Shown one piece after another: positions 2,644 to 52,506 of a stretch of DNA of 58,851 bases. Made by a program: the position numbers and the translations under genes. The number at the start of each line of letters is the position of its first letter. Position 1 is the first letter of the stretch. Below the pieces are notes generated by a model. The model had not been told where the DNA came from and ran no database searches. It saw nothing but the letters and a program-made list of their open reading frames with translations. Source of the stretch: an uncultured Bacteroidota bacterium (lineage in GTDB: Bacteria; Bacteroidota; Bacteroidia; Flavobacteriales; Flavobacteriaceae); the NCBI GenBank assembly GCA_902560045.1, contig CACEKJ010000007.1:1-58851 (forward strand), given 5' to 3'.

Positions 2644-2644
2644 T

Positions 2645-37900: not shown

Positions 37901-38628
37901 AAAGAAATTACCGTTTCAATCTCTGTAGTTTTATAAAATTCTGATTTATCAGCGCTTTTTGGTGAAAATTGTTGGATTTTAGGACCTTTGATGAATGCTA
38001 CATTGTCTTTATATGCTGAAACTAAATTTTCAGGATTAGTTTTAGAAGTTTTTTTAATTAGTGAAAAAAGAGACATTTCCTTTTCAACTCCATCAATAAT
38101 AAATTTCCCATTGAAAATTTTATGCCTACAGTGTTCTGAATTGACTTGTGAGAAGCCAAAAATTTCAGAATCTGTTAATTTCCTACCGATTTCTTTTGAA
38201 ACATTATTTAAATAATCTATTTCTTCAAGGTTTAATGACAAGCCCTCTTTGGCGTTGTAATTATCAATATTTTCAATATAATTTATTTTTTCTGGGACAA
38301 TATTAATTTCAAATAAATCTTGACATAGAGTTTTAAATCTTTGGTTCAACATTGGATCAAAGTTAGAAATTCTGTCTTCTAGCATGTATTTTTCAATTCT
38401 ATTGATTGATTCAAGGCCCATATTTTGTGTAATCTCAACAGCATTTGTACTCCATGGCGAAACCATAGCAGCTCTAGGCCCTATGTAATTGTTTTTTATC
38501 TTCTCTTCTGTAATAAGTTTAGCGTTTCCAAACAGCCATTCTAGTTTACTAATTCCTTCGATAGGAATTTTTTTTTCTGATTGGACAGCATAAATTGTTT
38601 TATGATTAGTTTGAAAAAAAGATATCAT
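34960..38628 (-). CDS. purL: Phosphoribosylformylglycinamidine synthase
   Basis: 1222 residues, the single-chain large PurL form. A synthase part with AETHNFPTTVEPFNGAATG and GGDNYRIGMGGAAVSS, the repeated ATPase-fold halves, and a C-terminal class I glutamine amidotransferase (LSIGICNGCQLFMEL with the nucleophilic cysteine and MPHIERSIFKW with its histidine). It converts FGAR to FGAM with glutamine and ATP in purine synthesis. A 105-base gap upstream separates it from the ABC exporter. Confidence 0.96.
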   Translation of the reverse strand: MISFFQTNHKTIYAVQSEKKIPIEGISKLEWLFGNAKLITEEKIKNNYIGPRAAMVSPWSTNAVEITQNMGLESINRIEKYMLEDRISNFDPMLNQRFKTLCQDLFEINIVPEKINYIENIDNYNAKEGLSLNLEEIDYLNNVSKEIGRKLTDSEIFGFSQVNSEHCRHKIFNGKFIIDGVEKEMSLFSLIKKTSKTNPENLVSAYKDNVAFIKGPKIQQFSPKSADKSEFYKTTEIETVISLKAETHNFPTTVEPFNGAATGSGGEIRDRLAGGKGSIPLAGTAVYMTPYARINSKEWENKIESREWLYQNPIDILIKASNGASDFGNKFGQPLIAGSILTFENNDKNEIQSYDKVIMLAGGIGYANKNHAIKEKPSKDDLIVIMGGDNYRIGMGGAAVSSADTGEFSSGIELNAIQRSNPEMQKRVANAIRGTIENKNNCIVSIHDHGAGGHLNCLTELVEETGGFIELDNLPIGDPTLSNKEIIGNESQERMGLIIKKENIDEFIRICEREKAPVYVVGKVSDDNNFKIYSEKSNESCVDLNLKHFFGSSPKTILTDNSISKLYNKISYDSRYLHNYLEDLLSLEAVGCKDWLTNKVDRCVGGKVAKQQCVGQLQLPLNNCGVMALDFETDNGIATSIGHSPISGLIDPVAGSRNSIAEALTNIIWAPIKDNIRGISLSANWMWPCKNKGEDARLFKAVEAVSEFAIDLGINIPTGKDSLSMNQKYKDQEVKSPGTVIISATGHCENINFVVEPVFKKNYGSIYYINLSNDKFKLGGSSFSQIMGNVGLETPSIQNPEFFKKTFNVVQDLIKNELIIAGHDIGSGGLITSLLEMCFPSINISANIDLSALNEKDSVKLLFSENCGLIVQSKSEEIEKIFTQFSVEYYKIGEVISGDSMMIKNDSDEFVFKIPKLRDIWFNTSTQLDAKQTANNLANERFKNYKKQPLKFKFPKEFKGEIKIGLNSSKPIAAVLREKGSNSERELANALHMAGFLVKDIHMTDLISGRENLEDIKFLGAVGGFSNSDVLGSAKGWAGSFKYNEKAKKALVNFFNREDTLSIGICNGCQLFMELDLIYPDHENHGKMTYNDSKKHESIFTSVNIKKNNSIMLGSLENLNLGVWVSHGEGKFNLPYSENKYNIIANYSYNEYPSNPNGSDYNTAMMCSTDGRHLVTMPHIERSIFKWNWAYYPDKRTEKVSPWIEAFTNAKNWILSNKCISE

Positions 38629-38732
38629 TATGATATATAAATATGAATGCTAAATTTAACGGAAAATAATGTATTTAATAAGTGAATAAATTGTTTAAAA
38701 TAAATAGTTATTCACCTCTTTTAAACACAAAT

Positions 38733-40559
38733 TTAAATGGATTGCATTTTAACCAAATTACTGTAAACACCGTCTTTTTTCATTAATTCTTTGTGTTTTC
38801 CAGATTCGATAATTTGTCCTTTATCAAGTACAATGATTTTTTCTGAGTTTTGGATGGTTGATAACCTATGTGCTATAACAATAGATGTTTTATCTTTCAT
38901 TAGATTGTCTAAAGCAGTTTGTACAAGTTTTTCACTTTCGCTGTCTAGCGCTGAAGTAGCTTCATCAAGAACCAAAATTGGAGGATTTTTTAAGACAGCT
39001 CTAGCAATACTTAATCTTTGTTTTTGACCTCCTGAGAGCTTATTCCCAGAATCTCCAATATTTGTATCAATTTTTTTTGGCAATTTTTTGACAAATTCCC
39101 ATGCATTTGCAACTTTTAAACAATTTATGATTTCATCGTTTGTTGCATCCTCTTTCGCAATCAACAAATTATTTTTTATAGTATCATTAAAAAGTATTGA
39201 ATCTTGTGTTACTAAACCAATCATTTTTCTCAAAGATTCTTTTTTTAGATTTTTTATATCTGTATTGTCAAAACATATTTCCCCTTTCTGTGTATCATAA
39301 AATCTACATATAAGGTTAGCCAATGTTGATTTTCCACTTCCAGATTGTCCAACCAGTGCTACACTACTTCCTTTGGGTATTGTCAGGTTTAAATTGTTAA
39401 TTACAACATCATTTTCATATGAAAATGACATATTTTTAATCTCAATATTGTGATCAAATGAATTAATTTCAATAGCATTTTTATTTTCTGATATGATTGT
39501 GTCGTTATCTATAACATCAAATATTCTTTCTGCTGCTGCAGTTGCTTTTTTTACTTTATAGGTAGCTCTACTTAACGATTTTGCTGGAGTTAGAATATTG
39601 TAGGCTAATCCAAGATAAACAATAAATGCACTAGCATCTAGTGAGTTTTCTTTTAAAACCATCATTCCTCCAACCCACAGTACTCCAGCAATAGCAGTGA
39701 TTCCTAAAAATTCACTCAAGGGGCTGGCTAGGTTCTTTCTGTTTAAAACGCTATTAGAAAATTTATAAAAACGAATCGTTGAGTTCGTAAACTTTTTTTG
39801 AAACTTTTCTTCAGCGTTGAATATTTTTAAAATCTTCATTCCAGATAAAGTTTCATCAACAAGAGATATAAATTGGCCTTGTTCTTTTTGAACCTTTAAT
39901 GATTTTCTTCTTAGTGATTTACCCACTAGTGAAATAACAAATCCACAGATAGGGATAAAAACAATTACAAATATGCTAAGTTTTGGACTTATCAAAAACA
40001 TTGATAATAAGGTGAATAAAACCATCAATGGATCTTTTACAATCAATTCAAAAATTGATAAAAAAGAGTGATCTAACTCTTGCACGTCTGATGATATTCT
40101 GGCCACTATATCACCTCTTTTTTTCTCTGAATAATATGAAAGTGATAATTTAATAATGCTCTTGTAAATATCGTTTCTAATATTTTTAACAACTCCATTT
40201 CTTAAATATGTAATAAAGAACATTGACATATAATTAAAGATGTTCTTTAACAAAAATGTAATTACAATAAGACCAACCATAAAAATTAAAACATCGTTAT
40301 TTCCATCTACTTTTTTTAAGGTTACAAAATAGTTTAGATAATTTTCAGAATAATTTGCTAAGTCTGAAATTCCAGACCATACAGGAGGAGATGTTAATTG
40401 CTCCGTCTGATTAAATAATACCTTAAGCATTGGAAACAGTGAGATCATTGATAATGTCCCAAAAAATGCATAAAAAACATTTGAAAATATATTTAAGACA
40501 AAATATTTTCTAAAAATCCATGCGTAGGAAAAAATTCTATTGAAGTAATTTTTTTTCAT
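38733..40559 (-). CDS. ABC exporter, MsbA-type (membrane and ATPase fused)
   Basis: 608 residues. About six transmembrane helices in the first 330 residues, then the ATPase: Walker A ALVGQSGSGKSTLANL, Q-loop LVTQDSILFNDTI, signature NKLSGGQKQRLSIARAVL, Walker B PILVLDEATSALDSES and switch IVIAHRLSTIQNS. The half-transporter layout resembles MsbA, lipid A flippase; a drug or lipid export role is equally open. It overlaps the phosphohexomutase gene by four bases. Confidence 0.9.
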   Translation of the reverse strand: MKKNYFNRIFSYAWIFRKYFVLNIFSNVFYAFFGTLSMISLFPMLKVLFNQTEQLTSPPVWSGISDLANYSENYLNYFVTLKKVDGNNDVLIFMVGLIVITFLLKNIFNYMSMFFITYLRNGVVKNIRNDIYKSIIKLSLSYYSEKKRGDIVARISSDVQELDHSFLSIFELIVKDPLMVLFTLLSMFLISPKLSIFVIVFIPICGFVISLVGKSLRRKSLKVQKEQGQFISLVDETLSGMKILKIFNAEEKFQKKFTNSTIRFYKFSNSVLNRKNLASPLSEFLGITAIAGVLWVGGMMVLKENSLDASAFIVYLGLAYNILTPAKSLSRATYKVKKATAAAERIFDVIDNDTIISENKNAIEINSFDHNIEIKNMSFSYENDVVINNLNLTIPKGSSVALVGQSGSGKSTLANLICRFYDTQKGEICFDNTDIKNLKKESLRKMIGLVTQDSILFNDTIKNNLLIAKEDATNDEIINCLKVANAWEFVKKLPKKIDTNIGDSGNKLSGGQKQRLSIARAVLKNPPILVLDEATSALDSESEKLVQTALDNLMKDKTSIVIAHRLSTIQNSEKIIVLDKGQIIESGKHKELMKKDGVYSNLVKMQSI

Positions 40560-42266
40560 AAATTGATTTTAGAAACGATCTCGTTTAATTTTGCATCTAA
40601 CATCAAATTTACCTCTTTAAATTCACTAATGGTTTGAATTTTAGAATTTACGCTTATATACATTTTTATTTTTGGTTCAGTTCCACTAGGTCTAAGAATT
40701 AATTTGTATCCGTCAATTGATTCAAATTCAATAACATTTGATTTGGGCAATTCAATTGTTTCGGTTTTTTGCGTAAGAATATTTTTTTTGATTGATTTTT
40801 GATAATCACAAACGTATTTCACCTTTGATTCACCGATAAAATTAAGAGGGGTTTTCCGGAAATGTTCTATTATATCATTAATTTCCTTTTGACCTTTTTG
40901 ACCTTCCTTTACAATTGAAATAAGCTTTTCTTTATAAAATCCATATTTGATATAAAGTTTAATGAGTTGATGAAAAACAGATGTATTATTTTGTTTGTAA
41001 AAAGACATCATCTCATATGCTAATAGGCTTGCAGTAATTGCATCTTTATCTCTAACCTCATCGCCAATCATTAGTCCATAACTTTCTTCTCCACCAGCAA
41101 TAAATTTTTGGTTTGGGAAATCTTCTATCATTTTAGCTATCCACTTAAATCCAGTTAAACTTAATTTGCAATCTACATTATAGTTTAGAGCAATTTTTTT
41201 TTATCATTGGGGTTGAAACGATTGTTGATGCAATAAAATAGTCTTTATTTAATTCTTCGTTGTTTGACTTTAATTTTAGTAAATAATCAAAAACAACAAT
41301 CATTAATTGATTTCCGTTAATCAATACCAGATTATTGTCTAAATCTCTTACAGCTACACCAAGTCTATCAGCATCTGGGTCCGTTCCTATAACCATCTCA
41401 GCATTTTCTAAATTTGCTAGTTTTAATGCCAAATCCATTGATTCAATTTCTTCAGGGTTTGGAGATTTAACTGTACTAAAATTACCGTCTGGTGACATTT
41501 GGGATTTTTCAAATTTTGCATTTAAGTAACCAGCCTTTTTTAGTAGTCTAGGCATAATTACTGATGAAGTTCCGTGTAGTGCAGTGAAAACGATTTTATT
41601 TTCTTTCCTTGAAATGATTTCTTTATTTAATCCAGTTGAAAGACAAAGATTAATGAATTCATTATCAAATTCTTGTTCAATGATCTCAATTAATGAATTA
41701 TTAGCGTTAAATTTTACATCTTCAAATTGTATCTTTTCAATCTCACTTATTAATTTTTTATCAATAGGAGGAACAATTTGACCTCCATCACTCCAGTAAA
41801 CCTTGTAGCCATTATATTTTGGTGGATTGTGAGAGGCGGTTAGTACAATACCACATGTACAATTAAGTTTTCTGACTGCATATGATAACTCAGGTGTTGG
41901 TCTTAACGATGAAAATAAATATACCTTAATTCCATTTGCTGAGAATACGTCTGCAACAATCTTCGCTAGTATGTCACTGTTTTTTCTACAATCAAATGCG
42001 ATTACAACTTTTTTTGAAATATTTTGTTGATTATTAATGAAATTTGATATTCCCTGGGTATTTTTTCCGATTGTATATTTATTAATACGATTGGTTCCTA
42101 TACCCATTATTCCTCTCATACCTCCGGTGCCAAACTCCAAATTTTTATAGAAAGATTCGTGAAGTTCAGAATGATTTTTTTTAAGAATATTTAATTCTTG
42201 GATCGTCTTATTATCAAACGGTTTCTTTCCCCAATTATTTATATTTTTTAGTATTTCTTCAGTCAT
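40556..42266 (-). pseudogene. Phosphoglucomutase/phosphomannomutase with a frameshift in an A9 run
   Basis: Alpha-D-phosphohexomutase. The N-terminal part (42266 down to about 41203) contains GMRGIMGIGTNR, phosphoserine loop LTASHNPPKYNGYKVYW and metal loop GTDPDADRLGVA, and ends in KKNCSKL. The C-terminal part (reopening at 41131) has GGEESYGLMIGDEVRDKDAI and phosphate-binding RPSGTEPKIKMYI. On the coding strand a run of nine A (T9 at 41194-41202 on the plus strand) makes the shift; with eight A the protein is continuous through PMIKKIALNYNVDC and reaches 569 residues, the normal length. It could be a sequencing error, a real mutation, or be rescued by slippage of RNA polymerase on the A run. 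Confidence 0.9.
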
Positions 42267-42328
42267 AAAATAAGCAGGTAAATTTATGATTTAAGTTTTT
42301 TTAAAGATGAATTAATCTGTTAAAGTAA

Positions 42329-43276
42329 TCACAAATTTAATTTTTTGGAAATTTTATATTGCGGTTTTTTATTGCTGTTTCGTAACATTAATTCCCCGAT
42401 GAATCCCATTGAAAAAAATTGACTTCCTATAATCATTGTAACCAGGCTAATATAAAATTCAGGTCTTTCTGTTATTAATTTGCCCAAGGGATTTACAAAT
42501 AATTTATCATACCCAAGAAAAATTGCGAATAATAAACCTGTAGTTAACATTAAAAGCCCTAATGATCCAAAAAGATGCATTGGTCTTTTGCCAAAACTAG
42601 AAATAAACCAAATTGTTAAAAGATCTAAAAATCCATGAAGAAATCTACTGGCTCCAAATTTAGTTCTTCCGTATTTTCGGGGCCTATGATTAACAATTTT
42701 TTGACCAATTTTTTTAAAACCCTCATTTTTAGCCAAGATAGGGATGTATCTGTGCATTTCTCCATATACATTTATTGATTTTATCACATCTCTTTTGAAA
42801 GCTTTTAATCCACAATTAAAGTCATTTAGTTTGATTCCTGACGTTAATCTTGCAGCAAAATTGAAAATTTTGGAGGGAATATTTTTTGATAATACCGAAT
42901 CGAATCTTTTTTTCTTCCATCCTGAAACCAAATCATAATTATCATTTGTAATCATATTATACATTTCAGGAATTTCTTTTGGGTCATCTTGAAGATCCGC
43001 ATCCATTGTAAATACTACTTCTCCTTGACATTTCAAAAACCCGGCATGAAGCGCTTGAGATTTACCATAATTTCTTAGAAATCGTATTCCTTTAATGTTC
43101 TTTTTATCAATTGATAGGTTTTGTATTAATTCCCAAGAACCGTCTGTACTTCCATCATCAATTAGAATAATCTCATTAGTAAAGCTATATGCTTTCATAA
43201 CCTCATCAATAGAGTTTATTAACTCTAAAAGAGATTCTTTTTCATTTAAAAGCGGTATTATGACAGAAATATTCAC
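42329..43276 (-). CDS. GT2-family glycosyltransferase (dolichyl-phosphate-mannose synthase-like)
   Basis: 315 residues from a GTG start. The GT-A domain shows ISVIIPLLNEKESLLELI, ILIDDGSTDGSWELI and FTMDADLQDDPKEIP (the DxD-like metal site), then two C-terminal transmembrane helices (about 235-255 and 275-300). Such enzymes move sugars to undecaprenyl phosphate or related lipid carriers. Which sugar is unknown. Followed upstream by the DUF4199 gene. Confidence 0.88.
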   Translation of the reverse strand: MNISVIIPLLNEKESLLELINSIDEVMKAYSFTNEIILIDDGSTDGSWELIQNLSIDKKNIKGIRFLRNYGKSQALHAGFLKCQGEVVFTMDADLQDDPKEIPEMYNMITNDNYDLVSGWKKKRFDSVLSKNIPSKIFNFAARLTSGIKLNDFNCGLKAFKRDVIKSINVYGEMHRYIPILAKNEGFKKIGQKIVNHRPRKYGRTKFGASRFLHGFLDLLTIWFISSFGKRPMHLFGSLGLLMLTTGLLFAIFLGYDKLFVNPLGKLITERPEFYISLVTMIIGSQFFSMGFIGELMLRNSNKKPQYKISKKLNL

Positions 43277-43282
43277 TAATGT

Positions 43283-43798
43283 TTATGATTTTTTCATGAC
43301 AACGGCTACCAAGAGTCCAAAAATTGCATTTCTTAATAGAGCATTAGCATAATTTTGAAAAATTGCCATGTAAGAGAATGAATGATTATTTTGCATTTCG
43401 TTCATTGCTTCACTTATCATTTCAGAAGTAGCCCCGAAATTTTCCATCATTACTTTTGAACTTACCATTATTTCTTCATGAATTATGTCTGCAGCAGCAG
43501 GATCAATAATTTTAAAAATTACAATGTTTCCGAAAGTAACAATTAAATAGCCAATAGCAATACATAAAAAATAAGCAGTAAACGCCTCTTTAAAAGAAAT
43601 TATATCATTCTGTAATTTTCTTGCACTAAAAACAGAGTATATACTAAAACCTAGTGCTGGTATCATGTAGGCCAGAATCACAGAAAAATTTGTGAATAAT
43701 TTTATATCTATAATGTAAATTATTGTTGTTATTACGAATAAAAGAGTTCCTAGTTTTACACCAAGATCAATAGAATTTTTTTTGAGGGTAGTATCCAT
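43283..43798 (-). CDS. DUF4199 membrane protein
   Basis: 171 residues from the ATG at 43798; an upstream in-frame GTG (43858) adds an unlikely segment. Four transmembrane helices: about 13-30, 37-55, 71-95 and 145-165. The KLGTLLFVITTIIYIID and SFKEAFTAYFLCIAIGYL regions match DUF4199, a Bacteroidota family of unknown role. Its stop is seven bases ahead of the glycosyltransferase start, suggesting co-expression. Confidence 0.8.
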   Translation of the reverse strand: MDTTLKKNSIDLGVKLGTLLFVITTIIYIIDIKLFTNFSVILAYMIPALGFSIYSVFSARKLQNDIISFKEAFTAYFLCIAIGYLIVTFGNIVIFKIIDPAAADIIHEEIMVSSKVMMENFGATSEMISEAMNEMQNNHSFSYMAIFQNYANALLRNAIFGLLVAVVMKKS

Positions 43799-43867
43799 AT
43801 TTTCATAATTTGCTTCAAATATACAAAAAGGATATTCCAAAAAAATTAAATAAAACACTTACAAAAA

Positions 43868-43897
43868 TTGTTTAATGTTAAAAAATCAATAAATTTG
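43868..43897 (+). promoter_or_regulatory. Bacteroidota-type promoter for the L31 gene
   Basis: TTG at 43868-43870, a 19-base spacer and TAAATTTG at 43890-43897, an excellent match to TTG(N19)TAnnTTTG. The next ATG is 18 bases after the -7 element, giving a very short leader. Confidence 0.75.
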
Positions 43898-43915
43898 CAC
43901 CTCAAAATCAGTAAA

Positions 43916-44170
43916 ATGAAAAAAGGTATACACCCTGAAAACTATAGACTTGTCGCATTCAAAGACATGTCTAATAATGATATATTTTTAGCCAAATCAA
44001 CAGCTCAAACAAGTGAAACTGTTTCTGTTGATGGAGTAGATTATCCACTTGTAAAGCTTGAGATCTCTAGAACATCTCATCCTTATTATACCGGTAAAGC
44101 TAAACTTGTTGATACCGCTGGTAGAATTGACAAATTCAAAACCAAATACGCGAAATTCAATAAAAAATAA
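43916..44170 (+). CDS. rpmE2: 50S ribosomal protein L31 type B
   Basis: 84 residues from the ATG at 43916; the longer open frame to 43868 would start inside the promoter. KKGIHPENYRLVAFKDMSNN and SSxT-type C-terminal HPYYTGKAKLVDTAGRIDKF are L31 type B features (bL31B): no zinc-binding cysteines, so it does not need zinc. It is a single-gene unit with its own promoter and terminator. Confidence 0.93.
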   Translation: MKKGIHPENYRLVAFKDMSNNDIFLAKSTAQTSETVSVDGVDYPLVKLEISRTSHPYYTGKAKLVDTAGRIDKFKTKYAKFNKK

Positions 44171-44195
44171 AAATCAGTTTTTTTAAAAATCTTTG

Positions 44196-44229
44196 AGCCT
44201 CTTATATAAAATTAAGAGGCTTTTTTTTA
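44196..44229 (+). terminator. Rho-independent terminator after rpmE2
   Basis: Stem AGCCTCTTA (44196-44204) pairs perfectly with TAAGAGGCT (44213-44221) around an 8-base loop and runs into eight T residues (44221-44228). It ends the rpmE2 transcript before the acetyltransferase gene. Confidence 0.85.
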
Positions 44230-44259
44230 TACATTTAACCAAAATTAATTATTCAAAAC

Positions 44260-44682
44260 ATGGCTGAAATAGATTTTAGAGCTGTTAAAAGATCTGATTT
44301 AAAAGAAGTAATAGTATTATTAAATCAACTCAAGGAAATAGATGTTTCAAAAATTAATTTAAATAAAGCGTGGAGTGATTTTATATCAAACTCAAGTTCT
44401 AATTCTATTGTTGGTATTTATAATAATAAAGTTGTTGCATACGGTAGCCTGGTTGTTGAAAATAAAATCAGAGGAGAGGTTGCTGGTCATATCGAAGATA
44501 TTGTAGTTGACAGCAATGTAAGAGGAAAAATGATTGGAGTTGCTTTAATTAAGGAACTGATAAAAATAGGGAAAATTAAGGGGTGTTACAGAATAACATT
44601 ATTTTGTAAAGAAACATTAGTTAAATTTTACTCTAGAAACGGATTTGAGGTTAATAACGTTGTAATGAAAAAGTATCTTTAG
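44260..44682 (+). CDS. GNAT acetyltransferase resembling eukaryotic glucosamine-6-phosphate acetyltransferase (GNA1)
   Basis: 140 residues. The second half reads GHIEDIVVDSNVRGKMIGVA, GCYRITLFCKE and FYSRNGFEV, strikingly like the GNA1 signature (GHIEDxxV, RGKGxG, GCYKxxLxC, FYxKxGF) that binds acetyl-CoA and glucosamine 6-phosphate. If it has that activity it would make N-acetylglucosamine 6-phosphate, a step bacteria normally do on glucosamine 1-phosphate with GlmU. The similarity is from memory of the human and yeast enzymes. Flanked by the rpmE2 terminator and a four-base interlock with the next gene (TTAG). Confidence 0.75.
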   Translation: MAEIDFRAVKRSDLKEVIVLLNQLKEIDVSKINLNKAWSDFISNSSSNSIVGIYNNKVVAYGSLVVENKIRGEVAGHIEDIVVDSNVRGKMIGVALIKELIKIGKIKGCYRITLFCKETLVKFYSRNGFEVNNVVMKKYL

Positions 44683-46271
44683 TTTTTCCTAACCGATCTT
44701 AAATCTAATAAATTTGTGGGATTAATCTTCATTCCCTTCACATCCTTAGACACAAATCTTACAACTTCATCATAGAAAAGAGGTACAATTACGGAATTAG
44801 AAATCACAATAGAATCCATTTTTTTATATAAAAACTCTTTGTTAGCCTGATCATTTTCCTTTAACGATTGCTCATAGAGTTTGTCATAATTTTGATCAAA
44901 AAAATGTGTATAATTTGGTCCATTTGGTGAAAAATTCTTGCTGTAAAACAATGATAAATAATTTTCAGCATCTGGATAGTCTGCTATCCAGCTAGCTCTA
45001 AAGAAATTTAATTTTCCGTTAGCTTTTGCTTGTTTTAGTGCCGAACCAGGAATTACGTCTATAATTATTTTAATTCCAATTTTTTCTAATTCTTTCTGAA
45101 GGAATTCGCAATAGATTAAATAATTGCTTGAAGTTGTAAGTTTTATTGATGGACTTTCGTTATATTTTTTTTTGTACTCATTAACCAATTTTTTTGCCTT
45201 TAATATATTATATTCATTGTTTTTATTTCTAGAATAACCGGGTAGCCCATAAGGGATAAAACCTCCATTTGCTGCAATTCCAATACCATTCCTTAGATAT
45301 TTTATCATTTTTTCTTTCTCAAAACCAATATTTATTGCCTTCCTAATCAGCTCAGATTGTATCGTCTTATTATTAGAATCCATAAAAAATGCCAAGTATT
45401 CTGTATTCAAGAAGGGTCCTCTCATCATCTCAATTGAGCTCTTATATTCTTCTTTTAGCTCACCCTTATGATTAATCACTTCGTCTTTGTAAGAGTTATC
45501 AAGTCCAGAAATAAAATCAATTTCACCTTTAATTAACTGAAGAAATTCGCTTTGTTTTTCTGGTAAAAATGAAATTGATACTGCTTCAAGAAATGGAAGT
45601 TTTTCTCCATTTTTATTCGTTTTGTGGTATTCTGTATTTTTTCTCAAAACAAGTTTGATGTTTTCTTCCCATCTTTTAAATTTAAATGGCCCCGTTCCAA
45701 TTGGATTTGAACGAAATTTTTCACCATAAAATTCAACTACATCTTTAGGTACAACAGAACAGTATTTCATTGTAAGTATTCCTAAAAATGCATTAAATGG
45801 ATCTTTTAATTTAATTTCAAAAATGGAATCATTTACTGCACTAAAGCTCTCAACTTTATCTAAAACCCAAGCACCTGGAGCTGCTATTTTTGGATCAATC
45901 AATCTGTTAAAACTATACTCAAAATCATGTGCTGTAACTTTTCTGTTTTTTATTTTGTGATGAGGGTGAAATTTAACCGAATTATCAATAAGAAAACTAT
46001 ATAATTTTCCATCGTCTGAAATACTCCATTTTTTTGCTATTGACGGGGTTATATTCATTGCACTATCCATCTCAACCAATCCCTCAAAGATTTGGTTAAC
46101 CGCCCAAATATTAGCAATATCTTTAGCATATATGGGATCTAAAGAGTTAATGTTTTTATGTTCATTATATCTAAAGACATTATTTGTATCAACATCAGAA
46201 ACGCTACTACAACTGCAGAAAACCATTAGTACAACTAATGAGCTAAGTGTTAGGTTATATTTGATGGTCAA
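44679..46271 (-). CDS. Solute-binding lipoprotein, family 5 (oligopeptide/dipeptide type)
   Basis: 530 residues. The lipobox is VLMVFCSCSS, cysteine near 19. A family 5 extracellular solute-binding fold follows: KNINSLDPIYAKDIANIWAV, AKKWSISDDGKLYSFLID, VTAHDFEYSFNRL, GTGPFKFKRWEEN and a later RKAINIGFEKEKMIKY. It would bind oligopeptides or dipeptides for import. The permease and ATPase genes are not nearby, so it is an orphan. TTG start at 46271; no ATG lies before the lipobox except late ones. Divergent from mtaB. Confidence 0.88.
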   Translation of the reverse strand: MTIKYNLTLSSLVVLMVFCSCSSVSDVDTNNVFRYNEHKNINSLDPIYAKDIANIWAVNQIFEGLVEMDSAMNITPSIAKKWSISDDGKLYSFLIDNSVKFHPHHKIKNRKVTAHDFEYSFNRLIDPKIAAPGAWVLDKVESFSAVNDSIFEIKLKDPFNAFLGILTMKYCSVVPKDVVEFYGEKFRSNPIGTGPFKFKRWEENIKLVLRKNTEYHKTNKNGEKLPFLEAVSISFLPEKQSEFLQLIKGEIDFISGLDNSYKDEVINHKGELKEEYKSSIEMMRGPFLNTEYLAFFMDSNNKTIQSELIRKAINIGFEKEKMIKYLRNGIGIAANGGFIPYGLPGYSRNKNNEYNILKAKKLVNEYKKKYNESPSIKLTTSSNYLIYCEFLQKELEKIGIKIIIDVIPGSALKQAKANGKLNFFRASWIADYPDAENYLSLFYSKNFSPNGPNYTHFFDQNYDKLYEQSLKENDQANKEFLYKKMDSIVISNSVIVPLFYDEVVRFVSKDVKGMKINPTNLLDLRSVRKN

Positions 46272-46328
46272 AGTTTTTATTGATATTTATTTAGTCGTAA
46301 ATTTACAATCCTTTTATTATTATAAATA

Positions 46329-47693
46329 ATGACAAGCGTTAAAAAAGTTGCATTTCATACTTTAGGTTGTAAATTGAATTTTACAGAGTCTTCAACAATT
46401 GCAAGATCATTTAAAGAAAATGGCTATGAGTTAACTGATTTTTCAAACAAAGCAGACTTTTATGTGATTAATACCTGTTCAGTTACTGAAAATGCTGATA
46501 AAAAGTTTAAAAATATTTTAAACAAAGCAAAAAGAAATAACTCAAGTGCAAAAAACATTGTTATTGGTTGTTATGCACAATTAAAACCAGCCGAAATTTC
46601 TAATATTCCCGGTGTAGATTTAGTTTTAGGTGCAAATGAAAAATTTAATGTTGTTGATTATATAGAAGACTTAAAAAACAACGACAAACCATTAGTGCAT
46701 TCTTGTAATATTAATGATATTGAAACATATGAAAGCAGCTACTCGGTTGACGATAGAACTAGATCTTTCTTAAAAGTCCAAGATGGTTGTGATTATAAGT
46801 GTACTTATTGTACAATTCCTAGGGCAAGAGGTTTTTCTAGAAGTGATTCTTTAGAAAATATAAAAGATAATATTTCTAAAATTGCTTCTAAGGGTGTAAA
46901 AGAGATCATTTTAACCGGCGTCAATATTGGGGATTATGGAAAAGGGGAGTATGGGAATAAAAAACATAAGTCAACTTTTTTTGATTTGATCAAAGAACTA
47001 GATAAATCAATGGGAATTGAAAGGCTAAGAATTTCATCTGTAGAACCAAACCTTCTTAAAAATGAAATAATTGATTTTATTTCTCAAAGTAATTTATTTG
47101 TGCCACATTTTCACATTCCATTACAAAGTGGGTCAAATAAAATATTAGGATTAATGAAAAGGAGGTATCAAAAAGAACTTTACCAGCAAAAAATTGAATA
47201 CATAAACAGAAAAATAGATAATGTTTGTATTGGGGTTGACGTTATAGTCGGATTTCCAGGAGAAACCGAGCAGGATTTTCAAGAGACTTACCACTTTCTT
47301 AAAAGTCTAGAAATTTCTTATTTACATGTTTTTACCTATTCTGAAAGAGATGATACAGAGGCGGCTTTAATGTCTAATATTGTTCCTAAAAATATTAGAA
47401 ATCAAAGAAGTAGAATGCTAAGGTCATTATCAAAAAAAAAGAGTAGAGCTTTTTATAATTCACAATTAAAGAGTAAAAGAATTGTTTTGTATGAATCAGA
47501 GAATAAATATGGATACATTCACGGGTATACTGATAATTATGTAAAGGTTAGAACTCCTTGGGATCCAAAATTATCTAATAAACTTATTTATTCAAAATTG
47601 AAAAATATTGATGATGAAGGATTTATGAGGGCAGAAAAGGTTGTCCAAAATAAAAACGTTAGACAAGTATCATATTCTGATGCCCACGGGTAA
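46329..47693 (+). CDS. mtaB: tRNA t6A methylthiotransferase
   Basis: 454 residues. The N-terminal UPF0004 domain binds the second iron-sulfur cluster (LGCKLNFTES, NTCSVTENADKK, GCYAQLKPAE), followed by the radical SAM site CDYKCTYCTIPRARG (C-x3-C-x2-C) near residues 153-167 and a C-terminal TRAM domain (about 375-440). MtaB turns t6A37 of tRNA into ms2t6A37. The final 24 bases overlap the convergent small acetyltransferase gene. Confidence 0.93.
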   Translation: MTSVKKVAFHTLGCKLNFTESSTIARSFKENGYELTDFSNKADFYVINTCSVTENADKKFKNILNKAKRNNSSAKNIVIGCYAQLKPAEISNIPGVDLVLGANEKFNVVDYIEDLKNNDKPLVHSCNINDIETYESSYSVDDRTRSFLKVQDGCDYKCTYCTIPRARGFSRSDSLENIKDNISKIASKGVKEIILTGVNIGDYGKGEYGNKKHKSTFFDLIKELDKSMGIERLRISSVEPNLLKNEIIDFISQSNLFVPHFHIPLQSGSNKILGLMKRRYQKELYQQKIEYINRKIDNVCIGVDVIVGFPGETEQDFQETYHFLKSLEISYLHVFTYSERDDTEAALMSNIVPKNIRNQRSRMLRSLSKKKSRAFYNSQLKSKRIVLYESENKYGYIHGYTDNYVKVRTPWDPKLSNKLIYSKLKNIDDEGFMRAEKVVQNKNVRQVSYSDAHG

Positions 47694-47954
47694 TAGAGAT
47701 TTGTATTTTCTGTTTTTCCTTATAAATTTTGTTATTATGGCTGCAGTTGGAACTACACTTATATTTCTATCTCTGATAATTTCTAAAACTTCTGACATAA
47801 AATTTTCACAGAATGCATCCCTATTTTTCATTTCAGGAACTAGAATTTTAGTAAGGAAAATTTTTCTCTCTTGAACAGAGTACTCGATTATAGCTAAACC
47901 GCCGTTAATTTTTGTCTCAAATTGTCTTAAAAAGTTATTATCTGTTATTTCCAT
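47670..47954 (-). CDS. Small GNAT-like N-acetyltransferase (YidJ/Gcn5-related)
   Basis: 94 residues from the ATG at 47954; a TTG at 47963 is upstream in frame. The pattern ITDNNFLRQFETKINGGLAI, IEYSVQERKIFLTKILVP and NISVVPTAAIITKFIRKN is the compact GNAT-like family (single-domain, short acetyl-CoA fold). The usual glycine-rich loop is weak, so activity is uncertain. It overlaps the mtaB 3' end by 24 bases and is divergent from the hydrolase gene. Confidence 0.7.
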   Translation of the reverse strand: MEITDNNFLRQFETKINGGLAIIEYSVQERKIFLTKILVPEMKNRDAFCENFMSEVLEIIRDRNISVVPTAAIITKFIRKNRKYKSLLPVGIRI

Positions 47955-47985
47955 AATTAACAAAACTTTATTAAAAAGTTGAATG

Positions 47986-47993
47986 CAAATTTA
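47986..47993 (-). promoter_or_regulatory. Possible -7 element for the small GNAT gene
   Basis: TAAATTTG on the minus strand (47993-47986), 31 bases before the ATG at 47954. The -33 element is unclear. Confidence 0.35.
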
Positions 47994-48023
47994 ATAAATT
48001 TAAACTAAATCGATTTTTTCTAA

Positions 48024-48689
48024 ATGGATAACTCTGTAAATCATATTTATATGATGCCAGGATTGGCAGCAAATTCCAAGGTTTTTGAAAATATAAACCT
48101 TAAAAACGACAATTATTACATTCATACGTTGGATTGGGATCAGCCTAAGAATGGCGAGTCCCTTAAAGATTATTGTAAAAGATTTTCAAAAAAAATAATT
48201 CATGACAATCCGATTTTATTAGGTGTTTCCTTCGGAGGTATAATTGTTCAGGAAATAGATAAGTTGATTAATGCAAAAAGAGTTATAATTGTTTCCAGTG
48301 TTAAAAAAGATTCAGAATTTCCGATGGTTTTTAAAATTGCTAGAGATTATGGTCTAAATAATGCTTTGCCCTTTGGAATGTTTGATAATGCGATAAATAT
48401 ATCAATGAAATTAAATATTAATAAATTATACAAAAGAATCGATCTTGCTGAGAGATATTTGACAGAAAGGGATGAATACTATTTAGAATGGGCGGTTAAA
48501 AATCTTTTAAATTGGAGACAGGATACACATAGAGAAGATATAATTCACATAAACGGGGATAGGGATAAAGTTTTCCCAATCAATAATATATCAAATTGTA
48601 TAATTTTAAAAGGTGGTAGACACGAAATGATTATTCTTAGAGCTAAATGGTTTAACGAAAATTTGATAAAACTTATCGAAAAGGTTTAA
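48024..48689 (+). CDS. Alpha/beta hydrolase-fold protein
   Basis: 221 residues. The nucleophile elbow is in LLGVSFGGIIVQE (G-x-S-x-G, serine near 73), the acid probably in HINGDRDKVFP and the histidine in LKGGRHEMIILRA. The oxyanion residues come from HIYMMPGLAANSKVF. Substrate unknown; likely a small esterase or lipase-like enzyme. It faces the DUF2892/TPR gene with only two bases between stops. Confidence 0.8.
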   Translation: MDNSVNHIYMMPGLAANSKVFENINLKNDNYYIHTLDWDQPKNGESLKDYCKRFSKKIIHDNPILLGVSFGGIIVQEIDKLINAKRVIIVSSVKKDSEFPMVFKIARDYGLNNALPFGMFDNAINISMKLNINKLYKRIDLAERYLTERDEYYLEWAVKNLLNWRQDTHREDIIHINGDRDKVFPINNISNCIILKGGRHEMIILRAKWFNENLIKLIEKV

Positions 48690-48691
48690 CT

Positions 48692-49261
48692 TTATCTTCT
48701 TCTCATATTATTTCTTCCAAAATGCTGATTGGGGATATTTGTTTTTTTCATTTGATTTTTCATCATTTTGATTTGATCAGTTAGCATCCCATTTTTATCT
48801 AGATTTTGTGCTTCTTTTAACATTTTTTGCGCTTCTATTTTTCTTCTTTTAGTAAATAGTATACCAGCTAAATTAAGCTTTGCCATTGCAAGGTCGTGAT
48901 CCATATTTAACCCAAGTGTTATGGCAGTCCTAAAATACTTTTCAGCTTGATTCATATTTTCCTGTGATATGATCAGACCCTTCAGATAATTAAAATATCC
49001 CTGTTGTTTCGTGGTAAGTGCGGTTTGTGGGTTCTTGATTCTATTTAACCACTTGTCAGCACCAACTAAGTTTTGTTTTCTTAACTGAAAAAAGGCGAGA
49101 ATTAGAAATTCATTTCTAAAAAAAAGTAGAATAAAAATCAATGATAGAAATATTAAAGCGATACCGTTTCCAGTAGAACCAACTGAGCCGTCAACGAACT
49201 GTTTGATAGCTAATGAAAAAATCAAAACAGCGATAATTAGTTTTATGTACTTATTAAACAT
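48692..49261 (-). CDS. Membrane protein with TPR-like repeats (DUF2892-like N-terminus)
   Basis: 189 residues. Two hydrophobic helices at residues 5-22 and 30-56 (NKYIKLIIAVLIFSLAI, GIALIFLSLIFILLFF) are followed by helical repeats (about 85-165: YFNYLKGLIISQENMNQAEKYF and LAMAKLNLAGILFTKRRKIE) and a polar, Arg-rich tail. No enzymatic motif. It may be a scaffold; it is divergent from rpmH. Confidence 0.6.
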   Translation of the reverse strand: MFNKYIKLIIAVLIFSLAIKQFVDGSVGSTGNGIALIFLSLIFILLFFRNEFLILAFFQLRKQNLVGADKWLNRIKNPQTALTTKQQGYFNYLKGLIISQENMNQAEKYFRTAITLGLNMDHDLAMAKLNLAGILFTKRRKIEAQKMLKEAQNLDKNGMLTDQIKMMKNQMKKTNIPNQHFGRNNMRRR

Positions 49262-49330
49262 TCTTTTAAAAATTAAAATTTCGTTTTAAAATTAATAAAA
49301 AACAATTTGATAATTATTAAATAATTTGGT

Positions 49331-49360
49331 TTGTTTAAGTAAAAAGTCTTTGTATATTTG
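49331..49360 (+). promoter_or_regulatory. Bacteroidota-type promoter for rpmH
   Basis: TTG at 49331-49333, a 19-base spacer and TATATTTG at 49353-49360. Both spacing and -7 sequence match the consensus, and the spacing equals that of the rpmE2 promoter. The rpmH ATG lies 38 bases after. Confidence 0.75.
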
Positions 49361-49398
49361 CCCGCAGTTTTAGTTTTAAAACACCTAAATATTTTAAG

Positions 49399-49557
49399 AT
49401 GCCAAAAAGAACCTTTCAGCCTTCAAAACGTAAGAGAAAAAATAAACACGGATTCAGAGAGAGAATGTCTACTGCAGCCGGAAGAAAAGTGCTTTCTAGA
49501 AGGAGAGCAAAGGGTAGAAAGAAGCTTTCGGTTTCATCTGAAAATAGCCCTAAATAA
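49399..49557 (+). CDS. rpmH: 50S ribosomal protein L34
   Basis: 52 residues translated directly: [20 protein letters not shown], then [20 protein letters not shown] and [10 protein letters not shown]. This is bL34 with its hallmark [10 protein letters not shown] and [16 protein letters not shown]. Single-gene unit between a strong promoter and an intrinsic terminator. It is not beside rnpA or dnaA, as it often is elsewhere. Confidence 0.96.
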
Positions 49558-49586
49558 AATGATTAACAATTGTTAATATTATATAT

Positions 49587-49616
49587 GGTGTTACTTATAG
49601 TAACACCTTTTTTTTT
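49587..49616 (+). terminator. Rho-independent terminator after rpmH
   Basis: Perfect 8-base stem GGTGTTAC (49587-49594) and GTAACACC (49600-49607) around a 5-base loop, followed by nine T residues (49608-49616). It separates rpmH from carB. Confidence 0.9.
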
Positions 49617-49653
49617 ATTTTTTTGATTAGTACATTTAAAAAACTTTAATTCA

Positions 49654-52506
49654 ATGCCAAAAGACGCTAACCTCAAATCTCTTTTAATAATCGGTTCAGG
49701 TCCTATAGTCATAGGACAAGCATGTGAATTTGATTACTCTGGTTCTCAAGCTCTACGTTCATTACGAGAAGATGGAATTGAGACTATTTTAATTAATTCA
49801 AATCCTGCAACAATAATGACGGATCCTGTAATGGCAGATCATGTTTATTTATTGCCTTTAAATACATCTTCAATTATTCATATTTTAAAGGAACATCCTC
49901 AAATTGACGCAGTTTTACCAACTATGGGTGGACAAACCGCGTTAAACTTATGTATTGAGGCTGACGATAAGGGAATTTGGCAGGATTTTAATGTAAAAAT
50001 TATTGGAGTTGATATAAATGCTATAAATATAACTGAAGATCGAGAAAAATTTAGAAATCTGATGCTTGATATCGGCATTCCTATGGCTCCACAGGCAACA
50101 GCTACATCTTACCTTAAGGGTAAAAAAATCGCACAAGAATTTGGCTTTCCGTTAGTTATTAGGGCTTCTTTTACTTTAGGAGGAACAGGTGCTTCTTTTG
50201 TTTATGAGGAAAAAGACTTTGATGAATTATTAACCAGGGGGCTTGAAACTTCACCTATTCATGAAGTTATGATTGATAAAGCATTAATTGGTTGGAAAGA
50301 ATATGAATTAGAATTACTTAGAGATGCTAATGATAATGTTGTAATTATTTGTTCAATTGAAAATATGGACCCAATGGGAATCCACACAGGTGATTCAATC
50401 ACCGTTGCTCCTGCAATGACCTTAAGTGATACTTGTTATCAGCGAATGAGGGATATGGCCATCAAAATGATGAGAAGTATTGGGGATTTTGCTGGAGGTT
50501 GTAATGTTCAATTCGCCGTGAGCCCAGACGAAAAAGAAGATATTATTGCAATTGAAATTAATCCTAGGGTTTCCAGATCATCAGCCTTAGCAAGTAAGGC
50601 AACCGGATATCCAATTGCAAAAATCGCAGCTAAACTTGCAACCGGTTATAATTTAGATGAGCTTCAGAATCAAATCACAAAATCAACTTCAGCACTCTTT
50701 GAACCAACACTTGATTATGTTATTGTTAAAATACCAAGATGGAATTTTGACAAATTTGAGGGTAGTGATCGAAGATTAGGTTTGCAAATGAAAGCGGTTG
50801 GTGAAGTTATGGGTATTGGAAGATCCTTTCAGGAGGCCTTACATAAAGCAACCCAATCATTAGAAATCAAGAGAAATGGTCTAGGAGCTGACGGTAAGGG
50901 TGAAACCGATTATGAGACAATTATTTCTAAGCTATCAATTGCATCATGGGATCGAGTTTTTGTTATTTACGATGCTATTCAAATGGGAATTCCACTAAGC
51001 AGAATTTATGAGTTAACAAAAATTGACATGTGGTTCCTAAAGCAATATGAAGAATTACTTTTCTTAAAAGATGAAATTTCTAATTATTCAATAAATGATA
51101 TTCCAAGAGATTTATTACTTGAGGCAAAACAAAAAGGATATGGTGATAGGCAGATAGCTTACATACTAAAATGTCTTGAAAGTGAGGTTTACTCTAAAAG
51201 ACAAGAAATGAATATTAATAGGGTTTACAAGCTTGTTGATACATGTGCTGCTGAATTTAAAGCATTTACCCCATATTATTACTCTACTTTTGAAAATGAA
51301 ATTGAAACCAATGATGGTGCAAAATATTCTGAAAATGAAAGTGTTGTTTCCGATAAAAAGAAAATTATTGTTCTTGGATCAGGTCCAAATAGAATCGGTC
51401 AAGGAATAGAGTTTGATTATTGCTGCGTTCATGGAATTTTGGCAAGTTCAGAGTGTGGATATGAAACAATCATGATAAATTGTAACCCTGAAACTGTTTC
51501 AACGGATTTTGACATTGCTGATAAATTATATTTTGAACCTGTTTTTTGGGAGCATATACATGACATAATCATGCACGAAAAACCGGAAGGAGTCATAGTT
51601 CAATTAGGAGGCCAAACTGCTTTAAAACTTGCTGAAAAGCTGGAAAGATATGGTGTTAAAATTATTGGAACAAATTACAAATCCTTAGATTTAGCTGAGG
51701 ACAGAGGTTTGTTTTCAACATTATTAAAGGAAAATAATATTCCATATCCAAAATTTGATACTGCGTCTACGGCTGATGAAGCTTTGGCAGTTGCTGAAGT
51801 ACTTGATTTTCCAATACTCGTAAGACCCTCTTATGTTCTTGGTGGACAGGGAATGAAAATTGTCATTAATAAAGAGGAATTAGAGGAGCATGTGGTTAAT
51901 CTACTAAGAAAAATTCCAAACAATAAGCTACTTTTAGATCATTATCTTGACGGGGCAATTGAGGCCGAGGCCGATGCTATATGTGATGGGGAAGATGTGT
52001 ATATTATAGGCATAATGGAGCATATTGAGCCATGTGGTATCCATTCTGGTGATAGTAATGCCTGTTTGCCGCCATTCAATCTTGGAGATATGGTAATCCA
52101 GCAAATTGAAGAACACACAAAAAAAATTGCTAAGGCTTTAAATACAGTAGGATTGATTAATGTTCAATTTGCAATTGTAAACGATATAGTCTACATAATA
52201 GAAGCTAATCCGAGAGCTTCAAGAACTGTTCCTTTTATTTCTAAAGCATATCACGAGCCTTATGTTAATTATGCTACAAAAGTAATGTTAGGAGAGAAAA
52301 AAGTTAAAGACTTTAACTTTAATCCAACATATGAAGGATATGCCATAAAAGAACCGGTATTTTCATTTAGCAAATTTCCAAATGTTAACAAGAAGTTGGG
52401 TCCTGAAATGAAGAGTACAGGTGAGAGTATATTGTTCATCGATAATTTGCAGGATGATAAGTTTTACGATTTATACTCCAGACGAAAAATGTATTTAAGT
52501 AAATAG
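49654..52506 (+). CDS. carB: Carbamoyl-phosphate synthase large subunit (short form)
   Basis: 950 residues. Two homologous ATP-grasp halves: the first with LIIGSGPIVIGQACEFDYSG, GGTGASFVYEE and IEINPRVSRSSALASKATGY; the second with VLGSGPNRIGQGIEFDYC, LVRPSYVLGGQGM and IIEANPRASRTVPFISKAYH. The protein ends at about residue 950, so the C-terminal allosteric MGS-like domain of the 1070-residue enterobacterial enzyme is missing. It makes carbamoyl phosphate with the CarA glutaminase, which is not in this window. Confidence 0.95.
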   Translation: MPKDANLKSLLIIGSGPIVIGQACEFDYSGSQALRSLREDGIETILINSNPATIMTDPVMADHVYLLPLNTSSIIHILKEHPQIDAVLPTMGGQTALNLCIEADDKGIWQDFNVKIIGVDINAINITEDREKFRNLMLDIGIPMAPQATATSYLKGKKIAQEFGFPLVIRASFTLGGTGASFVYEEKDFDELLTRGLETSPIHEVMIDKALIGWKEYELELLRDANDNVVIICSIENMDPMGIHTGDSITVAPAMTLSDTCYQRMRDMAIKMMRSIGDFAGGCNVQFAVSPDEKEDIIAIEINPRVSRSSALASKATGYPIAKIAAKLATGYNLDELQNQITKSTSALFEPTLDYVIVKIPRWNFDKFEGSDRRLGLQMKAVGEVMGIGRSFQEALHKATQSLEIKRNGLGADGKGETDYETIISKLSIASWDRVFVIYDAIQMGIPLSRIYELTKIDMWFLKQYEELLFLKDEISNYSINDIPRDLLLEAKQKGYGDRQIAYILKCLESEVYSKRQEMNINRVYKLVDTCAAEFKAFTPYYYSTFENEIETNDGAKYSENESVVSDKKKIIVLGSGPNRIGQGIEFDYCCVHGILASSECGYETIMINCNPETVSTDFDIADKLYFEPVFWEHIHDIIMHEKPEGVIVQLGGQTALKLAEKLERYGVKIIGTNYKSLDLAEDRGLFSTLLKENNIPYPKFDTASTADEALAVAEVLDFPILVRPSYVLGGQGMKIVINKEELEEHVVNLLRKIPNNKLLLDHYLDGAIEAEADAICDGEDVYIIGIMEHIEPCGIHSGDSNACLPPFNLGDMVIQQIEEHTKKIAKALNTVGLINVQFAIVNDIVYIIEANPRASRTVPFISKAYHEPYVNYATKVMLGEKKVKDFNFNPTYEGYAIKEPVFSFSKFPNVNKKLGPEMKSTGESILFIDNLQDDKFYDLYSRRKMYLSK

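Follow-up and report, generated by a model that had tools for sequence, protein, structure and literature searches.

Why does a bacterium carry an acetyltransferase of the eukaryotic glucosamine-6-phosphate type (GNA1), and which step could it serve? The question is raised by one gene on a 58,851-nucleotide contig (CACEKJ010000007.1), the whole of which we call the window, from an uncultured member of the Flavobacteriaceae whose genome is 64% complete at 1.16 Mb. A preliminary description had proposed a GNA1-like enzyme that would open a second route beside GlmU or act on a different amine substrate. Both peptidoglycan and lipid A draw on UDP-GlcNAc, and GlmU has been studied as a target for antibacterial agents.

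The open reading frame starts with ATG and is intact over 140 codons, with no internal stop. All four motifs quoted in the preliminary description are present (GHIEDIVV at residues 76-83, RGKMIG at 88-93, GCYRITLFC at 108-116 and FYSRNGF at 123-129), although its phrase "full GNA1 pattern" is slightly overstated, as Phe115 and Met91 depart from it. Pfam Acetyltransf_1 matches the protein at 50.1 bits (cut-off 20.7), and no NCBIfam model reaches its cut-off. A phmmer search of the PDB puts GNA1 or GNA1-like enzymes in all of the first nine places among distinct sequences, including yeast (E 8e-15), T. brucei, C. elegans, Arabidopsis, A. fumigatus and human, after which the values drop to E 1e-3. 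With a family profile, the eukaryotic GNA1 enzymes range from E 1e-25 to 1e-18 (Arabidopsis, 1.9e-25), followed by 6yug at 5e-9, which is C. parvum GNA1 by its entry title but a diamine acetyltransferase in the sequence file, and by the remaining matches at 1e-7 or worse. The AlphaFold monomer model has a mean pLDDT of 89.6, with the last six residues below 50, and structures of GNA1 or of the T. brucei GNA1-like enzyme fill the first 22 rows of its Foldseek list. VIA-align places the model on yeast GNA1 with a Z of 19.3 (2.2 Å over 137 residues) and on other GNATs with a Z of 16-18.8; therefore, the fold by itself would not decide the identity. The protein is closer to characterised GNA1 than to other GNATs in both sequence and fold, and the identity that had been read from the letters is borne out. 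It shares the fold of eukaryotic GNA1/GNPNAT1 (EC 2.3.1.4) over 137-140 residues at about 26-33% identity. The apicomplexan enzymes (PfGNA1 and C. parvum 6yug), which are GNATs that also perform this acetylation, resemble it in structure (Z 18.6) but are only 18-20% identical to it; according to the available text of PMC5838249, their origin is independent of the other eukaryotic GNA1.

Relatives with 59-97% identity were found on 33 marine Bacteroidetes contigs, the nearest named one found being in the single-cell genome AG-390-J14 (97% over the protein). The dN/dS ratio is 0.04-0.26 against seven diverged bacterial relatives, a rough estimate at dS values of 1.4-4.0, and 0.14 against a viral relative (L175); against the 97% relative it is 0.51, from very few changes. 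Because of the 33 marine contigs and the low dN/dS, the gene is not a chance reading frame: it is real and under conserving selection.

To compare the substrate site, the C. elegans GNA1 (CeGNA1) positions of PMC3413214 and PMC5225019 were mapped through the profile alignment (Table 1). Glu79, Asp80, Cys116, Tyr124 and Met136 are invariant in all 41 alignment rows, which include three eukaryotic GNA1. In the text available from PMC3413214, CeGNA1 Glu104 and Asp105 hold the 3-OH and 4-OH of the sugar and, through the backbone, the acetyl carbonyl, while Lys136 binds phosphate, Cys141 is fully conserved and Tyr149 stabilises the thiolate. Lys136 and Arg164 are given as the basic phosphate-binding residues and Thr44 as substrate-binding (PMC3413214 and PMC5225019, in part). 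The basic residue of the Lys136 position is kept as Arg111 in the window protein. Three positions differ, with Thr44 replaced by Lys25, Lys116 by Met91 (the P-loop glycine position) and Glu140 by Phe115. The residue before the conserved cysteine is Phe in all 19 bacterial host rows and Asp or Glu in all three eukaryotic rows, and hence we call the protein "GNA1-like" instead of certifying it as GNA1. Human GNA1 has been crystallised as the mutant E156A (3cxp, among the Foldseek rows), and we take E156 to be the place equivalent to Phe115. For CeGNA1 Glu140, the backbone alone is described as contacting the substrate in the part of PMC3413214 that deals with it. Counted on from Met161, Arg164 falls on Tyr139, beside Lys137-Lys138 and in a C-terminal strand that is poorly modelled in the monomer; from the alignment, these two lysines may stand in for it. 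The structure prediction and site comparison proposed at the outset thus gave a GNA1 fold with most mapped site residues kept, and the alignment points to a GNA1-like enzyme with some rebuilding at the phosphate end of its site.

The gene indeed lies between a terminator-like hairpin and a convergent gene, much as first described. This convergent gene, encoding a solute-binding protein, overlaps its stop codon and is not found at the corresponding place in two related loci (L037 and L019). The claim that there are no sugar-metabolism neighbours did not hold, as a phosphohexomutase and a family 2 glycosyltransferase occupy 40556-43276 and the slot itself is that of the alternative glmU (TIGR03991) in a relative. 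The window has, one after the other, genes for a mutase, a glycosyltransferase and DUF4199, then rpmE2, the GNA1-like gene, SBP_bac_5, mtaB, a 97-aa gene and a hydrolase-like gene. In G021, a genome of the same family estimated to be 100% complete, the order is mutase, glycosyltransferase, rpmE2, alternative glmU, mtaB, the 97-aa gene and the hydrolase-like gene, and in L037 rpmE2, the GNA1-like gene and mtaB follow each other with no gene in between. Across group A, the group of loci to which the window belongs, rpmE2 is directly upstream of the GNA1-like gene in 22 of 24 loci, the other two starting at a contig edge. The alternative glmU adjoins rpmE2 in nine of the 13 loci inspected and is not adjacent to it in four. 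This shared slot is the strongest evidence that the GNA1-like gene took over the step of the old enzyme. The presumed metabolic step is the same, but the proteins are different in kind: the alternative GlmU is named a bifunctional diphosphorylase/acetyltransferase, and its match is to the acetyltransferase end of archaeal GlmU rather than to a GNAT.

Table 1. Positions of the GNA1-like gene, its mapped site codons and its neighbours in the window
Feature	Position	Strand	Remark
Phosphohexomutase (PGM/PMM)	40556..42266	-	conserved neighbour; two frames, 41178-42266 and 40556-41131
Family 2 glycosyltransferase	42329..43276	-	conserved neighbour
DUF4199 protein	43283..43858	-	conserved neighbour in group A
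rpmE2, type B ribosomal protein L31	43868..44170	+	left slot border; NF002462 114.3 bits (cut-off 86), match from codon 17
Intrinsic-terminator-like hairpin	44195..44222	+	between rpmE2 and GNA1-like gene; 1 found vs 0.1 expected
GNA1-like GNAT acetyltransferase gene	44260..44682	+	140 aa; main finding
Glu79-Asp80 codons	44494..44499	+	align to CeGNA1 Glu104, Asp105; invariant in 41/41 rows
Arg111-Cys116 codons	44590..44607	+	Arg111 = CeGNA1 Lys136, Phe115 = Glu140, Cys116 = Cys141
Tyr124 codon	44629..44631	+	aligns to CeGNA1 Tyr149; invariant in 41/41 rows
Met136-Lys137-Lys138-Tyr139-Leu140 codons	44665..44679	+	Met136 aligns to CeGNA1 Met161
SBP_bac_5 extracellular solute-binding protein	44679..46271	-	convergent; between GNA1-like gene and mtaB
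mtaB tRNA methylthiotransferase	46329..47693	+	right slot border; TIGR01579 413.6 bits, over cut-off

Two of these neighbours deserve a remark of their own. The phosphohexomutase is a single frame of 569 aa in the near relative G003, and the frame shift near 41148-41200 in the window is probably an assembly error. We also considered whether this adjacent mutase could be a special AGM1, which proved uninformative, as a gene of like length (574-640 aa) occurs in 8 of 11 genomes outside the genus. The conserved 97-aa neighbour past mtaB (47670-47963, minus strand), also found in G021, encodes a small GNAT-like protein (Acetyltransf_CG).

Is the old enzyme still encoded elsewhere? Canonical GlmU (TIGR01173) is over its cut-off in none of 40 genomes, the window's own included, as against nine of 14 controls; all matches in the 40 lie far under the cut-off, and we rejected a canonical GlmU hidden elsewhere in them. 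The alternative GlmU, whose model (alt_bact_glmU) is graded merely "hypoth_equivalog", is over its cut-off in none of the 21 genomes of the genus, and 15 other genomes with the GNA1-like gene (nine of group B, described below, and six of group A) yielded no match to it at E 1e-15. Four more entries are duplicates of genus genomes by contig coordinates and lack it likewise. Altogether, the alternative GlmU was found in 0 of 36 genomes from the lineages with the GNA1-like gene (34 of these genomes carry that gene itself) versus 268 of 296 in a sample of the order made up of genomes at least 80% complete plus the window's own, which is below 80%. The 21 genus genomes, the part of the 36 with completeness figures, are 56-86% complete, and the GNA1-like gene is present in 19 of them, no less than expected of a universal gene at that completeness. 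We rejected incomplete assembly as the general cause of the missing alternative GlmU, since 0 of 36 is hard to reach at 56-86%. Since neither GlmU type was found, the GNA1-like gene looks like a replacement and not a second route; as to the earlier question of whether glmU is intact in the window's genome, neither type was over its cut-off in this incomplete genome.

A search of the order with alignment A1, restricted to genomes at least 80% complete besides the window's own so that the genus could not appear, returned the window gene and, where a contig of G029 ends, a partial gene; G029 has the alternative GlmU too. Two genomes of the order estimated at 99% complete (G034 and G035) have neither the alternative GlmU nor a GNA1-like match, so other solutions exist. 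Perhaps one such independent solution is a stand-alone hexapeptide acetyltransferase in G032 (L124:1429-2097, minus strand) that resembles the C-terminal domain of archaeal GlmU; this genome also lacks the alternative GlmU and has a stand-alone nucleotidyltransferase, but its acetyltransferase is a GlmU-type domain (TIGR03992, 136 bits, below cut-off), not a GNAT.

Other parts of the route are in place. Within the genus, glmS is over its cut-off in 15 of 21 genomes and full-length in 14, Arch_GlmM is over its cut-off in the window's own genome (G000), and LpxA, LpxC-FabZ and LpxD are present in G003, so UDP-GlcNAc is still needed. The GlmM sugar-loop motif GGEGNGG was read in all five genus genomes and in two of three genomes with the alternative GlmU (no motif was read in the third); a change of GlmM substrate was considered, and the unchanged motif gives no evidence for it. 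Unlike the eukaryotic GNA1-AGM1-UAP1 route, no UAP1-type partner (PF01704) was matched in the 40 genomes, where the control genomes were silent too. The candidate for uridylylation, by co-occurrence only, is a stand-alone PF00483 nucleotidyltransferase (alignment A2), which occurs in 29 of the 36 genomes from the GNA1 lineages versus 11 of 32 positive for the alternative GlmU (three Dyadobacter included), and in 8 of 12 genomes negative for the alternative GlmU without a close GNA1-like gene. Fisher tests that ignore relatedness give p 1.7e-4 for the first comparison and p 0.09 for 8/12 against 11/32. There is no match in the window's own incomplete genome or in six others of the 36, and the closest solved relative is 3pnn, titled "conserved domain protein".

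This nucleotidyltransferase family of ~295 aa (L084:1492-2379, plus strand) has no specific name and is enriched where the alternative GlmU is absent. An ORF of 362-374 aa (L084:374-1489, plus strand) stands beside it in six of seven genus loci listed, and the one of this type that was scanned gave a sub-threshold HPr-kinase-like match.

A second lineage with the gene is group B, whose contigs are marine and carry the labels Marinoscillum, Flammeovirgaceae or Cytophagales. Here, glmS is 0.1-1.9 kb downstream and convergent in seven of nine loci (seven of the eight with enough sequence), the exceptions being L031, which ends just past the GNA1-like gene, and L035, which has no glmS within its 5 kb. 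An ORF may lie in between (a TonB receptor in L034, an unknown ORF in L022), a GH20 hexosaminidase adjoins glmS in four of the nine loci, and the three glmS products tested all score above the curated cut-off of TIGR01135. GlmS makes glucosamine 6-phosphate.

The setting is different in three Dyadobacter genomes, which have a relative at 39-41% identity and all keep the alternative GlmU. In the two loci listed, the gene stands beside an aminotransferase gene of common start sequence with flippase genes further on, and in L041 (4971-9348, plus strand) models identify WecE-like, WecF-like and flippase genes beside it. Since Dyadobacter keeps the alternative GlmU and has sugar aminotransferase and flippase neighbours, its GNA1-like protein probably has a different, WecD-like task. 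The different amine substrate raised in the preliminary description is an unlikely reading for the window gene but the likelier one for these relatives.

Scanning IMG/VR turned up 28 contigs that encode a relative, 18 of them at 46-64% identity, while the search of plasmids gave no match and the named phage records a single one (38%). Phage-type replication genes flank the gene in both viral loci scanned against PHROGs, a UvsX-like recombinase, a single-strand binding protein and an exonuclease in L190, and a topoisomerase and a polymerase exonuclease in L179; L175 has a modest match to phrog_1249. By eye and from ORF starts, a GDP-mannose 4,6-dehydratase-like gene lies downstream in 13 of the 18 close loci, most with a DegT-type aminotransferase; models confirm the aminotransferase in L177 and put the dehydratase just under the cut-off. 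In L195 (1403-3414, plus strand) a GlmS-like gene below the cut-off overlaps the GNA1-like gene, and in L196 (38-3414) a GlmS over the cut-off is divergent to it, L201 (38-3414) having identical coordinates. These viral pairs look as if they serve to make GlcNAc phosphate during infection. L177 also encodes a 138-aa protein (2592-3008, plus strand) with no NCBIfam, Pfam or PHROG match, and an ORF of similar size and start is directly upstream of the GNA1-like gene in 11 of the 18 close loci by eye.

We consider it likely that, once the alternative glmU had been lost, a GNA1-type enzyme came to perform the acetylation in UDP-GlcNAc synthesis, whichever phosphate it acts on; for glucosamine 6-phosphate as the substrate, the chances seem about even. 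In the latter case GlmS, whose gene is present, would supply glucosamine 6-phosphate, which the GNA1-like dimer, judging from homology and site residues, would bind at its subunit interface; the substrate amine would attack acetyl-CoA directly and yield GlcNAc 6-phosphate. The archaeal-type GlmM or another phosphohexomutase, the genes of which are present, may then shift the phosphate to C1, and the candidate nucleotidyltransferase may add UMP. The displacement would have happened in place in the window's lineage, in the rpmE2-mtaB slot; in the second marine lineage, the gene is found close to glmS. Phe115 in place of the acidic residue, Lys25 in place of Thr44 and the uncertain Arg164 equivalent count against the takeover, as do the viral relatives, which are mostly in DegT/GDP-mannose dehydratase clusters, where the substrate could equally well be another amino sugar.

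The takeover might also involve glucosamine 1-phosphate, with the role of GlmM unchanged and a swap of just the acetyltransferase half of the alternative GlmU, a version that we judge unlikely but worth keeping in mind. It needs no change of mutase substrate, and it is consistent with the retained GlmM and the GGEGNGG motif common to the genus and the alternative-GlmU genomes, as well as with the altered phosphate cleft (Thr44 to Lys25, Lys136 to Arg111, the Arg164 region to Lys137-Lys138). On the other hand, the available portions of PMC3413214 and PMC5838249 give the 6-phosphate as the substrate of the characterised GNA1 homologues, and the nearby glmS of group B and of viral contigs points to the GlmS product, though GlmS feeds both routes. 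Less plausible still is a WecD- or PerB-like acetylation of a nucleotide-linked 4-amino-deoxy sugar for surface glycans, which would make the place in the glmU slot a coincidence. The WecE- and WecF-like neighbours in Dyadobacter and the dehydratase and aminotransferase genes of the close viral relatives speak for it, but the gene is kept in nearly all of the reduced genomes of the genus despite their incompleteness, it goes with the absence of the alternative GlmU in two lineages, and no sugar aminotransferase is among the window genes scanned with Pfam and NCBIfam (34960-52506; the other group A loci were matched to window genes only). That the genus imports or salvages N-acetylglucosamine and uses the GNA1-like enzyme as an accessory is very improbable: a nucleotidyltransferase relative stands beside a NahK-like-looking kinase in G034 (L123; no NCBIfam match) and hexosaminidase genes adjoin some group B glmS, but the full-length glmS in two thirds of the genus genomes argues for de novo glucosamine 6-phosphate. 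A generic peptide, polyamine or drug acetyltransferase merely resembling GNA1 would fit the common fold (Z 16-17 to aminoglycoside acetyltransferases; an uncharacterised Agrobacterium GNAT reaches 18.8), but the profile gap between the eukaryotic GNA1 and 6yug and the kept site residues with Cys116 leave it hardly credible.

Where might the enzyme that took over the step have come from? We built a tree of 49 rows comprising 10 of 25 group A genes, all nine of group B, two of three Dyadobacter genes, L044, three eukaryotic GNA1, seven other GNATs, 11 of 18 genes of viral group 1 (L175-L192) and six of ten of viral group 2 (L193-L202); the partial G029 gene (L060) was omitted. The bacterial genes and the 11 genes of viral group 1 in the tree form one clade (99/96), with L190 firmly (99/93) and L179 weakly (80/78) outside the bacterial genes. 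The window gene did not fall into a separate GNAT group lacking the binding residues, in a tree whose deep branches are weak and whose eukaryotic rows are not firmly placed. Host groups A and B as single clades were not rejected (AU p 0.175 and 0.124), so the tree does not show transfer between the two lineages, which their settings suggest. Viral group 1 as one clade was weakly rejected (AU p 0.037) in a test made after seeing the tree. The viral genes differ from those of the hosts in their nucleotide-sugar or replication surroundings and in residue 25, which is Thr in 9 of their 11 rows. With bacterial and viral genes in one clade and L190 and L179 outside the former, viral origin or carriage of the gene is therefore possible, and a transfer may have run in either direction. 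A viral GNA1 is not wholly new, as a glucosamine-6-phosphate N-acetyltransferase of marine giant viruses is named in a figure legend of PMC10148842.

The most complete version of the takeover is one that we offer only tentatively, and with more doubt than trust. In marine Flavobacteriaceae-like bacteria, a virus-borne GNA1-type gene would have replaced the alternative glmU at the acetylation step, in the very slot of that gene. It would have passed to, or come from, a second marine Bacteroidetes lineage where it is near glmS, and a stand-alone uridylyltransferase would have been recruited, giving a bacterial UDP-GlcNAc route with eukaryote-type acetylation. Our searches of the open-access literature, which leave subscription papers outside, listed no paper whose title or opening lines of the abstract describe a bacterial GNA1 in place of GlmU. 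If the takeover is real, two marine bacterial lineages make UDP-GlcNAc without GlmU, by a GNAT of the kind found in fungi, plants and animals, and an essential enzyme has been displaced naturally in its own gene slot, with viral relatives that suggest the vehicle. It would also provide a test of whether the "alternative GlmU" performs its assigned job.

Outside all groups of the tree is L044 (4995-5252, plus strand), a GNA1-like fragment of eukaryote-like look in an actinobacterial MAG, possibly on a misbinned contig.
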